A stretch of DNA of 58,123 bases from positions 1-58,123 of IMG/VR virus record IMGVR_UViG_3300028025_003736; one strand, 5' to 3'. The translations under genes were made by a program, and so were the position numbers. This DNA is from a virus. Positions 6,042 through 57,240 of the stretch are shown here, piece after piece. The first letter of the stretch is position 1, and every line of letters begins with the position of its first letter. The notes beneath the pieces are model-generated. The model saw only the letters and a program-made list of their open reading frames with translations, did no database searches and was not told the DNA's origin.

Positions 6042-8039
6042 TTGCAACAAGAACATCAAATATATGGTATTACATATAAGACTCCAGAAGTTCCAGAAAA
6101 CTTCTCAGATGGCAATAAGTTTAATAAAATAGTTATACCAGAGGTATTTCAAGAGCTAGAATTTGATGATGATGGGAATGCAATATATGGAGATGAGCAG
6201 ATGAATTTTATTATACAAGAGGTCAATAGAATTAAAAATGGTTATTGGTTCATAAATAGTGATGTAGAGACATACATAACTGGGTTGCATTATTTTTATT
6301 TAAACTATTGGACGCTTGAAGATGGGAATACACCAGACTATAGGGACGCAGACAGGAGATATTTTTACTTCCAAGAATACTGTGAAAAACTTCCGCAGTG
6401 CTATGGAGTTGTGCGCATTAAAAAGCGTAGGGAAGGTGCTACATCTCAAGCTACCTGCTATTTGGTATGGAAGGCCATTACGCAGAAAAAACAATTTTGT
6501 GGAATAATATCAAAGACTGGTAAAGACGCATCTGATGCTTTTATATACATGGTTATGAATGGATATAGAAATCTACCTATATTCCTAAAGCCAAGGGTTG
6601 AGGATGAGGAGACAAAAACAGAAATTGTTTTCAAGAAGAAGAAGGATAAGAGAAAAGTAGTGCAAAGGGAGAAAGGTAAAATATTTGATGATGATATAGG
6701 GATGGAGTCTAAGATAAACTTTAAGAATACTGCCCTAAACTCTTATGACTCTGGAAGGGTATCTGCCCTATTAATGGATGAGGCTGGTAAATGGCCAAGG
6801 GAAATTCCCGTAAATCAGTATTGGCCAATTGTTAGAAAAACACTTATGAGGGGTGCTATAAAAGTAGGGTTCTGCCTTATCCCATCAACAGCTAATGATG
6901 CAAAGAGTGGTGGAGAGCCATATAAGGCACTATTTGACGAAAGCTCACATTTTAATGACTCATATACAGCTACAGGTCTATATAGGTATTTTTGCCCTGC
7001 ATATGACGGCTACGAGGGTTTTATAGACGAGTATGGTAATTCTATAATAGAAGCGCCAACAGAGGAGCAAAAAAAGTATGTATTGCAGCGTTACGGAATG
7101 AAAATAGAGTCTGGTGCAAAAGATTATTTATTGGCTCAAAGAAGACTTATACAAGATAAGAAGGCACTTTCAGAGGAGATTAGGATGAATCCTTTTACTG
7201 AAGAAGAAGCCTTTATGATTGACCAGAAGAAGTGCTACTTTAACTCAGAGAAAATATACAACCAATTAGATGTTATTGCTGAAGACAAAATTAGACTTAG
7301 AAGAGTTAGATTGTATTGGAAAGATGATAAAACTGTTGAGTGGGCGGATGATAAAGAAGGGGCTTGGCTTATTCATAAGTTTCCTTCAGATGGGGAAAAG
7401 AATAGGTTTAAAGAGGATAATGGATATAAGTCTCCAGCCAATAGCCACAAGTATGTTTCAGGTATTGACCCATTCAAGTCTTCTGTAATATCTGGTAAAG
7501 GTTCTATGGGTACTTGCTATGTATTTGAAAGGTTGGATATAAATGACCCTAATAATACTGGGATGCCTATAGCGGAATACGTAGACAGGCCTAGGCTAAA
7601 ATCTCTTTTTCATGAAGACATGTTAAAAGCAGCTGTTTTTTGGGGATACAAGGCATGCTACGAGAATGACGTTGGCGATGATTTTGTGGACTACTTCTCA
7701 AATAAGGGATATAAGGGCTATCTAATGAAAACACCAGATGCCGCTATCGACAGAAATAAAAGAAGGCATGTTTCCAAGTTTGGGGTTACATCTGGAGACG
7801 CATTTGCTCTAGCTAGGCAGCTTGATACTTGTATTACCTATATAGAGAACTATTGTGACAAAATCGTATTCAAGGACCTTCTTGAAGAACTGCTCCAATA
7901 TGACCATGAACATAGGACCGTATACGATAGAACAGTAGCTTTTATGATTAGTTTGCTGTCTGGAGTTTCCCTAGAAAGTAAGAAGGAGGAGAAACCATTA
8001 GTTTCCATACCTTTGAGAACGTACAAACTTTCAATCTAA
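6042..8039 (+). CDS. terL: Terminase large subunit
   Basis: A 665-aa packaging ATPase-nuclease. The ATPase part has a degenerate Walker A (KKRREGATSQ, near residue 130) and a clear Walker B (ALLMDEAGKW, near residue 242). The C-terminal RNase-H-like nuclease shows its acidic residues in SGIDPFKSS, the YENDVGDDF segment and YDHEHRTVYDRTVA. It cuts concatemeric DNA and pumps it through the portal encoded next. I use TTG at 6042, 1 nt after the previous stop; the next in-frame ATG lies too far into the conserved N-terminus. TerL of this length, directly before the portal, is the usual arrangement in Bacteroidota podoviruses. Confidence 0.9.
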   Translation: MQQEHQIYGITYKTPEVPENFSDGNKFNKIVIPEVFQELEFDDDGNAIYGDEQMNFIIQEVNRIKNGYWFINSDVETYITGLHYFYLNYWTLEDGNTPDYRDADRRYFYFQEYCEKLPQCYGVVRIKKRREGATSQATCYLVWKAITQKKQFCGIISKTGKDASDAFIYMVMNGYRNLPIFLKPRVEDEETKTEIVFKKKKDKRKVVQREKGKIFDDDIGMESKINFKNTALNSYDSGRVSALLMDEAGKWPREIPVNQYWPIVRKTLMRGAIKVGFCLIPSTANDAKSGGEPYKALFDESSHFNDSYTATGLYRYFCPAYDGYEGFIDEYGNSIIEAPTEEQKKYVLQRYGMKIESGAKDYLLAQRRLIQDKKALSEEIRMNPFTEEEAFMIDQKKCYFNSEKIYNQLDVIAEDKIRLRRVRLYWKDDKTVEWADDKEGAWLIHKFPSDGEKNRFKEDNGYKSPANSHKYVSGIDPFKSSVISGKGSMGTCYVFERLDINDPNNTGMPIAEYVDRPRLKSLFHEDMLKAAVFWGYKACYENDVGDDFVDYFSNKGYKGYLMKTPDAAIDRNKRRHVSKFGVTSGDAFALARQLDTCITYIENYCDKIVFKDLLEELLQYDHEHRTVYDRTVAFMISLLSGVSLESKKEEKPLVSIPLRTYKLSI

Positions 8040-47045: not shown

Positions 47046-47354
47046 TTATTTTTCTATAGATTGAAGAAATTTAACAATTGTATCTTCAAGTTGTTGCTGA
47101 TATTCTTCGGGCATATTAGAAAGAAGTCTACATATACTATCGAATCTTAATGTATCAATAGACTTAGATACATCTGTTTGTACTTTTAAGTCCATATTCT
47201 TTTTAATCCAAGACAACTTATCCTTAATAGGTCTTACTGAATCTTTAACAGTTCTTGATGTTTGCTTTTCTATAAGAATATCTTCTGCATATATAAGTGC
47301 GTTGCATACATTTACATATATAAGGAATATTGATTCTCTTTGTCCTTGATTCAT
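47046..47354 (-). CDS. Hypothetical 102-aa helical protein
   Basis: Helical and charged, starting MNQGQRESIFLIYVNVCNAL, with VRPIKDKLSWIKKNMDLK. No motif recognised. It overlaps the end of the small membrane gene upstream by 4 nt. Confidence 0.55.
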   Translation of the reverse strand: MNQGQRESIFLIYVNVCNALIYAEDILIEKQTSRTVKDSVRPIKDKLSWIKKNMDLKVQTDVSKSIDTLRFDSICRLLSNMPEEYQQQLEDTIVKFLQSIEK

Positions 47355-47473
47355 TTACCTCTAATTAAAATGTAAATATACAAAGGAAGCAATAGAAATA
47401 AAAATACAATAAGAAAAAAAATTACTTCAAATATTAATCTTAGTAATTCTAATGATGCTCTAATTGGTTTCAT
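47351..47473 (-). CDS. Very small membrane protein (40 aa)
   Basis: The ORF from ATG 47473 encodes 40 residues (MKPIRASLELLRLIFEVIFF, then LIVFLFLLLPLYIYILIRGK): one amphipathic helix and one strong membrane helix. It overlaps the end of the HTH gene by 14 nt. A longer reading from 47593 in the same frame runs through the HTH gene and is not preferred. Function unknown. Confidence 0.45.
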   Translation of the reverse strand: MKPIRASLELLRLIFEVIFFLIVFLFLLLPLYIYILIRGK

Positions 47474-47762
47474 ATATTTCAATTGATTTTGAATAAACAG
47501 TTTCTCCTTTAGCCTTAAAGTCATCATCAGATAGACACATATTCCAATAGTCGTGTATATGGTGTTGTACTGTGCTATGTTCTGCATATCCAATAATCTT
47601 AGCTACTTCTTCCATCGTTATGCCTCCTACTATATATAGTGCCCAACACGCCATCTTCCTGGGCATAATATATTGTTTATATCTACTCTTATTATTGTAG
47701 TAGTTTTTATCTACTCCAAACTGTTCTGCTATGTAGTCTAGTACTTGTTTGTGCTTTTCCAT
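47460..47762 (-). CDS. DnaA domain-IV-like DNA-binding protein
   Basis: A 100-aa protein. MPRKMACWALYIVGGITMEE, VAKIIGYAEHSTVQHHIHDY resembles DnaA domain IV ('ARQIAMYLxRELTxxSLPEIGxxFGxRDHTTVLHA'), with IIGYAEHSTVQHHI replacing the DHTTV recognition helix. No AAA+ part is present. It could recognise DnaA-box-like sites, recruit or block host DnaA, or regulate transcription. It lies downstream of the 545-nt RNA-rich gap. A second such protein is at 48938. Confidence 0.6.
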   Translation of the reverse strand: MEKHKQVLDYIAEQFGVDKNYYNNKSRYKQYIMPRKMACWALYIVGGITMEEVAKIIGYAEHSTVQHHIHDYWNMCLSDDDFKAKGETVYSKSIEIYETN

Positions 47763-47803
47763 TAGATTATTGTTTTTAAACTATTACTGAATATAGATTT
47801 GAG

Positions 47804-47864
47804 AATAGGTGGTCAGAACAGAAGTTGCCCCCTTCCCCCTAAAGAAAACAACCTCTGACCTATT
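47804..47864 (-). repeat. Hairpin upstream of the DnaA-IV-like gene
   Basis: GGTCAGA (47811-47817) pairs with TCTGACC (47854-47860). An inner GTTG/CAAC and an alternative pairing AATAGG...CCTATT widen it. The loop is pyrimidine-rich (CCCCCTTCCCCC). It would lie in the 5' leader of the gene starting at 47762. Confidence 0.55.
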
Positions 47865-48025
47865 ACGTCATATGAGTTATCGAATGAGGTAGGCTGTATA
47901 GGGATAAAGTTACATCCACACTATACATTTAACAGATAAGGCACGGGAATCTTTGGTAAGGCCATGCCTATATATTCCTTATACTCGGAACTTAGAGAGA
48001 CAGACGACTGCTTGCTAACCAATCC

Positions 48026-48129
48026 AAAACAAAAAACCCACACAGGTCGCAGCTGTATGGGTTCAATGAAATGCGGGTTGCATTAAATCAAACCCGAATT
48101 CATACTGCGACTATCAATTCGGATTGACA
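48026..48129 (-). ncRNA. Candidate small RNA with kissing loops and an intrinsic terminator
   Basis: About 104 nt, read leftward. Hairpin B: CCGAATT/AATTCGG (48122-48116 with 48100-48094), 7 bp, 15-nt loop containing GTCGCAG. Hairpin C: AATGC/GCATT over AACCC. Hairpin A: AACCCATACAG/CTGTGTGGGTT (48063-48053 with 48045-48035), 11 bp on this strand including one G-U that would be an A-C mismatch on the other, loop CTGCGAC, then TTTTTGTTTT. Loops of B and A (GTCGCAG, CTGCGAC) are perfect complements. A canonical promoter lies directly upstream. No ORF of note. Not a family I recognise. Confidence 0.7.
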
Positions 48130-48132
48130 ATA

Positions 48133-48164
48133 CAAAAGTAAATATACTTTTCTTATAATCCAAA
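48133..48164 (-). promoter_or_regulatory. Canonical promoter of the candidate small RNA (TTTG-N20-TACTTTTG)
   Basis: Read on the minus strand: TTTG (48164-48161), a 20-nt spacer, TACTTTTG (48140-48133). Spacing matches the two other complete promoters of the window (19 and 21 nt). Expected start near 48129, just before hairpin B. Confidence 0.75.
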
Positions 48165-48180
48165 TTTAAAATAAAAATTA

Positions 48181-48274
48181 GCTGTTCTGGTACAGCAAAA
48201 CCTCCCTGCTGTCTTTATTGGGTAAAAAATAAACAACACACACTGAACCCAAATATCAAGACAGCTATGTCTTG
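48181..48274 (-). promoter_or_regulatory. Alternating complementary segments (attenuator- or operator-like)
   Basis: Minus-strand order: CAAGACA (48274-48268), GCTGTCTTG (48265-48257), AAGACAGC (48215-48208), GCTGT (48196-48192), ACAGC (48185-48181) followed by TAATTTTTATTTT. Segment 2 can pair with 1 (7 bp) or with 3 (8 bp plus TTGGGT/ACCCAA). Segment 4 can pair with 3 or with 5, the latter forming a weak terminator. The first dyad also lies exactly between a TTG (48278-48276) and a near -7 box GATATTTG (48257-48250), so it may instead be an operator. Confidence 0.5.
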
Positions 48275-48308
48275 CCAACCCCGAGACAAGGGTACAAGGC
48301 TTCATACA

Positions 48309-48941
48309 TCAGTGTGCTGTAATACCTAGCTTACGGAACATAAACTTGACCTTAGTAACTAAGTACTCTATGTCATTGTCGTTATGTAACGTATAATCAA
48401 AATCGTAATTATCTAAAGCAATCTCAGATATGTGTCCATTAACTGGCTTAGAATAAGGCCTTTTAACCCTAACAACTAATCCACCGCACTTTTTTATTTG
48501 TTCGGCTTCGTTAGGGAACCTGCAGTCTGTAACAACCCAATTTGTATTGCTCTTATCAACTAGAGTATTTGTCTTACATGACATACATATAGACATAGTT
48601 GATTCTTTATTACATACTGAGCAAACCTTCTTGAAGCTTATAGACCTGTTATACTCTGATATAAGTGCATTAACCCAAGCATCTTGGTGAAGGTTGTTCC
48701 TGATGGCATCAGTGCCTAATTTCTGAAGGAAATCCCTTACGGTCATGCCGTAACCTTCTAGCGTCATTTGCTTGACTAAATGGTCCTCAAAATCACTTAC
48801 AGATAGTCCTGTCAACATGCTCGCTATTTCCTTCAGCTTGCCCGAAAACTTTTTAACATGCCATTCAGGATATAACTCACATATTGTCTTTCCAACTGCG
48901 TCTTTGCCCGAGCCTGCGTAACCTGACAATGCAATAATCAT
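48309..48941 (-). CDS. Deoxynucleoside monophosphate kinase with zinc-ribbon insert
   Basis: A 210-aa kinase: P-loop SGYAGSGKDAVGK (Gly7-Lys13), LID-like QKLGTDAIRN, and VVTDCRFPNEAEQI, typical of phage dNMP kinases (T4 gp1-like). Residues 107-122 carry two CxxC pairs (CSVC, CMSC), a zinc-ribbon insertion. It phosphorylates dNMPs for phage DNA synthesis and may handle modified nucleotides. It ends before the RNA-rich gap. Confidence 0.78.
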   Translation of the reverse strand: MIIALSGYAGSGKDAVGKTICELYPEWHVKKFSGKLKEIASMLTGLSVSDFEDHLVKQMTLEGYGMTVRDFLQKLGTDAIRNNLHQDAWVNALISEYNRSISFKKVCSVCNKESTMSICMSCKTNTLVDKSNTNWVVTDCRFPNEAEQIKKCGGLVVRVKRPYSKPVNGHISEIALDNYDFDYTLHNDNDIEYLVTKVKFMFRKLGITAH

Positions 48942-56368: not shown

Positions 56369-56420
56369 GATTATTGTTGTTCAGTTTACGCTGTCCCCCG
56401 TTCTTTGGTTTATGAAATAG

Positions 56421-56463
56421 GCATAGGGGTTGGAGTCGAACCAACCCTGCGACCATCCTATGC
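56421..56463 (-). other. tRNA-like minihelix (acceptor plus T-arm, no D or anticodon arm)
   Basis: Minus strand: GCATAGG, a 10-nt linker, GGTTGG, loop TTCGACT, CCAACC, CCTATGC. The 7-bp outer stem stacked on a 6-bp stem with a 7-nt TTCRANY-type loop copies the acceptor and T-arm half of a tRNA. No encoded CCA; D and anticodon arms are absent. Confidence 0.55.
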
Positions 56464-57135
56464 TTTTTATAGGTTATTTACTCGTGTTTCTGTTTGTATG
56501 TAGCGACATCCCGTCGCCCATAGTCTTTTGCTCCCTGCTTAATCAACAGACAACGCCCACTTATAGCGTTGAATGGCTTTCGCCCAGGAGGGGTATATTA
56601 CACCGCTTGACGGTCAGCGTACCCGAACCCGCTTATATACGTTTACCACAACCCCTTAAAACGTATGAAAATCACATGGGTTTTCCTCGCATACCCCTAC
56701 CATTACACAATCCGAACTATGTAGGTAGTATGCTCACTTGGTACTAATTTACGTATGCGTCGCCATGCCCATAGCTTACAAATTACTTGTAAGGGCAATG
56801 ATGCGTCAACCCAATTTAACCTACCCAATAGTTACACTACCCACTTTCCCACTCCTTTGTGTGCATAGCACAGCCCGTTATGGTATTTGCAAATAATGAA
56901 CCTCTCCCCTCATAGTGCATTTCGCCCCATATGAGTTTAAGGTAGGCGAATCATTCGGACCGCCCATAAATAGTCAATATGTCAAAGAGTGTTTTAGTGG
57001 TCAAGCACAGGACGTCGGGAATTACTCCCTAGCTAAGCCATTAGTCGGAATTACTCCGCTCTATATGGCACACTTCGCCCCACACTTTGTTTTGTCAGAC
57101 CGCCCCCTTATTTATTAGGAGCAGCCCCCACATTT

Positions 57136-57153
57136 GCGATATGTTTATATCGC
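57136..57153. repeat. Perfect 7-bp inverted repeat
   Basis: GCGATAT (57136-57142), GTTT loop, ATATCGC (57147-57153). It overlaps the last CGCCC motif. Confidence 0.7.
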
Positions 57154-57180
57154 CCCCATTGGGATATCATAAATAGAAAA

Positions 57181-57240
57181 AAGTGGGGGAGTTGAACCCC
57201 CATACATTCAGATTTTTAGAATGTTTTTACCTTACTTTTT
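57181..57240 (-). other. Degenerate tRNA-like element with a perfect T-arm
   Basis: Minus strand: AAAAAGT could pair with ACTTTTT as a 7-bp acceptor. The T-arm GGGGG-TTCAACT-CCCCC is perfect and matches TTCRANY. An anticodon-arm-like hairpin (ACATTC/GAATGT) has a 9-nt loop and the D-arm is missing, so it is not a functional tRNA as read. It overlaps the last codons of the gene at 57232. Confidence 0.4.

Follow-up and report, generated by a model that had tools for sequence, protein, structure and literature searches.

A family of predicted small phage RNAs with two mutually complementary, covarying hairpin loops

Comparison of viral contigs identifies a new family of phage RNAs, predicted to be about 100 nt long, in which the loops of the first and the third hairpin (loops 1 and 3) are exact Watson-Crick complements over 6, 7 or 8 nt in 59 of the 59 records (in three of them, L101-L103, as read by eye). 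One member is encoded by the minus strand of the window, i.e. the whole stretch of DNA analysed, a 58-kb (58,123 nt) virus record with a G+C content of 35.7% that contains portal, terminase and other phage genes. We are very nearly certain that it is a real small RNA with selected loop pairing: the comparison establishes that its sequence is conserved from the predicted +1 onwards, that there is a single copy and that the loop-loop pairing is under selection. The original prediction of a small RNA with its own promoter and terminator, self-kissing loops and no known family is supported, as 58 relatives were found and Rfam 15 at the gathering cut-off gave no match to any family at the small RNA locus. 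Taken as a whole, the best explanation, to which we give an even chance, is a new family of ~100-nt RNAs with three adjoining hairpins whose loops pair over their full length (6-8 bp). Two unrelated phage groups (I and II) carry the RNA, the window belonging to group II; they are probably many uncultured phages of Bacteroidota.

Hairpins, promoter and terminator

The small RNA gene of the window comprises the following features:

48160..48163, minus strand: -33 element TTTG, at -35 to -32 relative to the predicted +1, from the sequence
48133..48140, minus strand: -7 box TACTTTTG, at positions -12 to -5, after TTTG and an N20 spacer
48029..48128, minus strand: small RNA of ~100 nt, predicted +1 at 48128 (predicted 5' end GUCAAUCC), end within the U-tract
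48091..48125, minus strand: hairpin 1 (H1), base AAUCC:GGGUU invariant, upper stem covarying
48105..48111, minus strand: loop 1, GUCGCAG, 7 nt, partner of loop 3
48091..48095, minus strand: GGGUU of H1 (G1), pairing with AAUCC of H1 or, in a competing fold, with AACCC of H3 (48063-48059)
48070..48084, minus strand: hairpin 2 (H2), loop with AACCC, stem with compensatory A-U/U-A pairs
48035..48063, minus strand: hairpin 3 (H3), intrinsic-terminator hairpin, from covariation and terminator scan
48046..48052, minus strand: loop 3, CUGCGAC, 7 nt, partner of loop 1
48029..48036, minus strand: U-tract UUUUUUGU after H3, a U-rich tract also being present in the members read

Folding of the 109-nt minus-strand RNA gives three hairpins at -36.1 kcal/mol (z = -4.0; none of 200 shuffles did as well), and these, with their perfectly complementary 7-nt loops (GTCGCAG/CTGCGAC), are present exactly as originally stated. 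The covariance model assigns the window 103.7 bits (E 1e-17), the window itself being among the source sequences of the model. The minus-strand orientation, which had been argued from a G-U pair, holds and generalises, since the column pair 80/96, with U-G in 22 members and C-G in 12, can form only on this strand. The claim that an AACCC loop can also pair with GGGUU stood in part: this pairing has some support from a compensatory variant in relatives (see below), but the hairpin in question is the second of the transcript and not the third. Within the loop of H2, AACC is invariant in the alignment described below.

The proposed promoter, TTTG-N20-TACTTTTG, was confirmed by direct reading (TTTG at 48163-48160, box at 48140-48133). 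In the 55 records with upstream sequence a box of the TAnnTTTG type ends exactly 4 nt before the G of GTCAATCC (TTCG replaces TTTG in 8 of them, and GTACTTTG of L049 deviates at the first base), and this spacing is constant in both phage groups, though the surrounding sequence is unrelated. The sigma-A box TAnnTTTG of Flavobacterium psychrophilum sits at -12 to -5 according to the geometry of mapped transcription start sites (PMC9723704), and because of this position we take the first conserved base as +1. The small RNA would be transcribed from its own sigma-A-type promoter with a predicted +1 at 48128. Many group I records also exhibit a conserved palindrome-like TCTAAAATATTTAG in the promoter spacer, at most 45 nt upstream, which is a possible operator.

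H3 shows the composition of an intrinsic terminator, a GC-containing hairpin and then a U-tract, and is completed as such because the U-tract stands 3' of it. Within the 1.4 kb that were scanned, no other strong site of the terminator type was found (H3: 12 pairs, 7-nt loop and U tail, on the minus strand; shuffles averaged 0.6 matches), and the plus strand of 47300-48700 yielded no terminator-like site.

Relatives, loop alleles and covariation

The best sub-threshold Rfam alignment was to the trpB ncRNA motif (RF04312; 27.7 bits vs a gathering score of 59), which was rejected as a generic hairpin plus terminator without loop pairing. A blastn search of the small RNA against 50,697 phage and 72,556 plasmid records yielded no real match, two weak plasmid pieces being due to chance. 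Relatives were retrieved by patterns: H1 with the window's loop reported one true relative (L004; L002, L003 and L006 were chance matches), the terminator loop five more, all of which had the complementary H1 loop that the pattern did not specify, and a pattern fixing only the H1 base retrieved 52 contigs. Two further usable relatives were added by a search with the downstream module and three by a slightly wider pattern, which brought the family to 59 records including the window, the 58 other viral contigs being mostly retrieved without specifying the loops or H3. The neighbouring dNMP kinase as a route to relatives gave only a distant locus (L005) without the small RNA. A scan of genome contigs with the window's own H1 allele returned 22 matches, taken as chance; only one of them (L010) held a loop pair, itself a chance match with the loops 162 nt apart. 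A covariance search of elemoE, phi19:3, phi40:1, Panino and MW202828 reported only one match, of 23 bits in phi19:3, which was rejected as it was without the H1 sequence.

The original prediction had named loss of the loop complementarity in related phages as the observation that would speak against it, and all 58 relatives (58/58) retain it. There are 19 different loop alleles (counted in 56 contigs). A loop 1 of 6 nt goes with a loop 3 of 6 nt (GTAGAG/CTCTAC), and the complementarity is co-extensive with the loops, stopping at their borders. The small RNA is single-copy in each of the 40 records searched whole, including the window; the other matches listed score weakly and for the most part reflect the same place in antisense.

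Alignment A1 contains 35 distinct members and was scored for H1, H2, H3 and the loop pairing. Its cells were paired in 96.2% of cases, vs 84.9% in shuffles and 31-43% in slid versions; 18 of the 35 pairs had changes on both sides, with 114 double-change cells vs 30 in shuffles, and the observed covariation values were reached by 0 of 500 shuffles, bearing in mind that related sequences may exceed shuffles without structure. Such an effect of kinship is disfavoured here because of the slid control and the number of alleles. In the loop helix, 7 of 7 pairs displayed compensatory double changes and 98.3% of the cells were paired, the misfits fitting one misaligned row (L051) whose loops are really complementary. 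The column pair 83-93 of H3 is U-A in 19 cases and A-U in 15. The bases at the base of H1 are invariant and hence by themselves no evidence for pairing.

Loop partner, competing fold and termination

Outside the loops, the contigs contain no excess of their own loop 7-mers (100 occurrences vs 86 expected from the other alleles), and none occurred in the 320 nt downstream of the small RNA (0 vs 0.8 expected). Given a single copy of the RNA and no excess of its loop sequence elsewhere, the two loops are most likely meant to pair with each other, and the partner is probably the RNA itself, via a lock within one molecule or a contact between identical copies. The same counts did not bear out the suggested antisense control of another phage gene. 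A trans-acting antisense RNA against another phage message or a host message would agree with the general behaviour of small RNAs with exposed loops, but we consider it very improbable given these counts, which cover the contigs themselves, and the free change of the alleles provided that both loops still match. We infer that the RNA folds or assembles in a 'self-only' manner, and it seems built to recognise itself. It appears likely to us that two hairpin loops truly kiss, and that the pairing is more than a nested helix. Covariation alone cannot separate pairing within a molecule, which we judge somewhat probable, from pairing between copies, for which the chances fall a little short of even. 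A 7-bp end-to-end kissing helix would be geometrically tight for a single molecule, as the hairpins adjoin without linkers when H2 is extended; opening of the lower part of H2 would leave ~6 nt on either side.

If loop 1 paired with loop 3 of the next copy, dimers or rings would result, as for the pRNA of phage phi29, whose right- and left-hand loops are complementary and covary between phages (PMC12670572), and, with the gene just behind terL in most group I records, a role in packaging would be conceivable. The likeness is that of a phage-encoded small RNA with two mutually complementary, covarying loops; in group II, the window included, the gene is however far from terL and beside the dNMP kinase gene. 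The pRNA forms 3-4 nt pairs between molecules and a three-way junction, whereas here the pairs comprise 6-8 nt, the consensus is three consecutive hairpins with a terminator, and no Rfam family matches. The pRNA is moreover described with gp16-type ATPases, whereas the phages considered here have an ordinary TerL that matches common terminase families (phrog_2 in group I, where terL was assigned by PHROGs, and phrog_6681 in the window, whose portal matches phrog_6547); this comparison covered TerL and portal, which are of other families. Such assembly of identical copies, with or without packaging, is in our opinion a minority possibility. The small RNA may work somewhat like pRNA but is not filed as a member, since sequence and fold differ and the packaging proteins found belong to other families. 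GOLLD and ROOL resemble it as structured RNAs of phages or prophages with covarying kissing contacts, GOLLD often being located near tRNA islands (PMC12286853); they are however far larger (several hundred nt vs 100 nt here) and form nanocages, and neither was matched in Rfam.

In a competing rod fold, GGGUU of H1 takes AACCC of H3 and the freed AAUCC pairs with GGGUU of the terminator; the rod keeps the loop pairing as an ordinary nested helix, opens the terminator and excludes the hairpin fold. It consists of the AAUCC:GGGUU outer helix, the loop helix, GGGUUUGAUU:AAUURAACCC and H2. The functional RNA could be this rod, with the loop complementarity serving the nested fold and not kissing, and with the hairpins only transient. 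By computation the rod comes within ~0.5 kcal/mol of the optimum in about 60% of the distinct members, and in many members it is the minimum-energy fold or close to it. It is also preferred by the complete 363-nt read-through RNA of the window, while the window's own small RNA favours the hairpin state by 4.5 kcal/mol. GGGUUUGAUU is invariant and the opposite strand shows purine-only changes. The alternative helix is paired in 94.9% of cells vs at most 60% when slid, with compatible changes only and no compensatory pairs. It is broken in L091, L092 and L101-L103, of which L091, L092 and L103 have the GGGU region re-paired as GGUCU/AGACC, compensatory to GGUUU/AAACC, and L101 and L102 have a shorter re-pairing, GGUC/GACC. 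All 35 members have a wobble at the base pair U6-G36, as would follow if G36 also had to pair with C76 of H3. We nonetheless regard the rod as an unlikely functional form, as the upper stem of H1 and the stem of H3 (columns 83/93, see above) covary without being needed by it, the complementarity ends at the loop borders, and the loop pairing persists in L091 and L092, where the helix is lost. A folded cloverleaf was rejected, its energy being ~5-9 kcal/mol above that of the hairpins (bulged members, e.g. L035, L044 and L057, left out).

The near-isoenergetic rod in many members suggests a switch between the two folds. In the hairpin state H3 would terminate transcription and release the small RNA; in the rod state the loop pairing would join a long duplex, AAUCC would take GGGUU from the terminator, and the polymerase could run on into the conserved downstream module. 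On this model a switch controlling termination is plausible, and a bistable small RNA acting as an attenuator is possible, if somewhat less than probable. RNA transcription attenuators of the pT181 type and others rely on a separate antisense RNA and control a protein gene, whereas the candidate downstream product here is a non-coding module. The likeness lies in the loop-loop contact and the terminator hairpin, which such attenuators have at the 5' end of the transcript (PMC4878617, PMC3753616).

Gene neighbourhood, exchangeable modules and significance

The genes and the module relevant to the genomic context of the window are:

6042-8039: terL, far from the small RNA gene
47460-47762, minus strand: gene for a DnaA C-terminal helix-turn-helix protein, one flank, downstream of the small RNA
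47785..48024, minus strand: conserved non-coding module 'type A', downstream of the small RNA, with compensatory pairs in a hairpin
48309-48941: dNMP kinase gene, the other flank of the small RNA gene

The window's terminase is ~30% identical to the terminase of Flavobacterium and Cellulophaga phages. In group I the small RNA is located between terL and the tail genes, terL being immediately upstream in most records, and in group II near dNMP kinase or other genes. The product of 47460-47762 (100 aa) is barely more than the DnaA domain IV helix-turn-helix (PF08299, E 5.7e-10), and cluster c33, upstream, resembles it by eye. Some group I phages carry an inserted c8 cluster gene on one or the other side of the RNA locus, its position being between the RNA module and gene c0 (L035, L050, L077, L087); longer members of c8 resemble a ParB-methyltransferase fusion. 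Elsewhere in the window, a non-coding stretch of ~830 nt on the minus strand (56400-57230) folds strongly (z = -3.57, 20 shuffles), and two hairpins resembling tRNA T-arms (GGGGGTTCAACTCCCCC and GGGTTGGTTCGACTCCAACCC) lie towards its ends; it is a candidate large phage RNA, for which ARAGORN and Rfam give no match.

The terminator is followed by ~250-300 nt of conserved non-coding sequence, which belongs to one of several mutually unrelated types (window; L029-L103): A in 30 cases, B in 13, C in 4, D in 6 and E/F in 3, plus three late finds. When the modules were searched alone, all assessable loci of type A (27/27) and type C (4/4) had the small RNA in front. The single-sequence fold energies are mostly unremarkable, and modules are called structured only where covariation shows pairing, i.e. 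in type A, whose hairpin has compensatory columns 97/128 (A-U, U-A, C-G) and 99/126; there was no Rfam match in the loci scanned. By eye, a TAnnTTTG- or TTCG-like box lies directly behind the U-tract in L045, L046, L055 and L080 and is a possible module promoter; read-through is perhaps unneeded because some modules may own such a box just after the terminator. A tRNA-like GTCAGGTGGCGGAA with an abnormal middle part precedes module A in L052 and follows it in L046, and L052 also carries a tRNA-like CAGGTTCGAATCCTGTCCTGACT; ARAGORN makes no call for these sequences.

Identical small RNAs can have different modules behind them (L057 and L066), loop alleles recur with different modules, and module exchange is independent of the loop type. 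Of the 49 pairs whose TerL sequences are at least 98% identical, 10 have a common loop and 27 a common module (many of the pairs are non-independent and some TerL sequences partial); near-identical phages by this threshold usually differ in loop allele. The exchange of modules between near-identical phages could point to a DNA element instead of an RNA, for instance a recombination or cassette-insertion site acting as a single-strand DNA hairpin, but the G-U pairs on one strand only, the promoter at constant spacing, the U-tract and the lack of an integrase seen adjoining make us discount this almost entirely.

In ColE1 RNAI/RNAII, hairpin loops begin the loop-loop interaction and the loop alleles define plasmid incompatibility (PMC9458437). 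By analogy, the small RNA could confer identity or immunity, its loop alleles setting which copies recognise each other, so that co-infecting phages avoid cross-talk or a resident phage silences one like itself. The 19 alleles, the small share of TerL pairs with a common loop and the full compatibility of only 16 of 272 cross-allele combinations (G-U allowed) agree with this. Yet neutral compensatory drift with recombination could give the same diversity, the other helices of the small RNA vary to a degree similar to the loops, and the TerL counts carry the reservations given above; ColE1 moreover uses two antisense transcripts of the same DNA, whereas in the present family one RNA carries both loops, and neither an antisense gene nor an antisense partner is apparent, the plus strand of 47300-48700 having been scanned for terminators. 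We therefore hold an identity function to be quite improbable. A broader model, which is doubtful but marginally less so, is that of an allelic self-recognition RNA: each phage would have one, with two loops that respond to RNAs of their own allele alone; copies would join, or sense their own concentration, through the loops, whereupon transcription would stop or enter the swappable module, and the alleles would diversify, keeping co-infecting phages separate.

The RNAs presented here form a phage RNA family that had not been described before; its members keep a loop-loop contact of the RNA with itself, whereas the sequence of the contact is free to change. Their 19 natural alleles are a ready-made set of compensatory mutants for questions of kissing, orthogonality and loop-controlled termination, and the downstream locus, with its swapped unrelated modules, is a second source of unknown structured RNAs.
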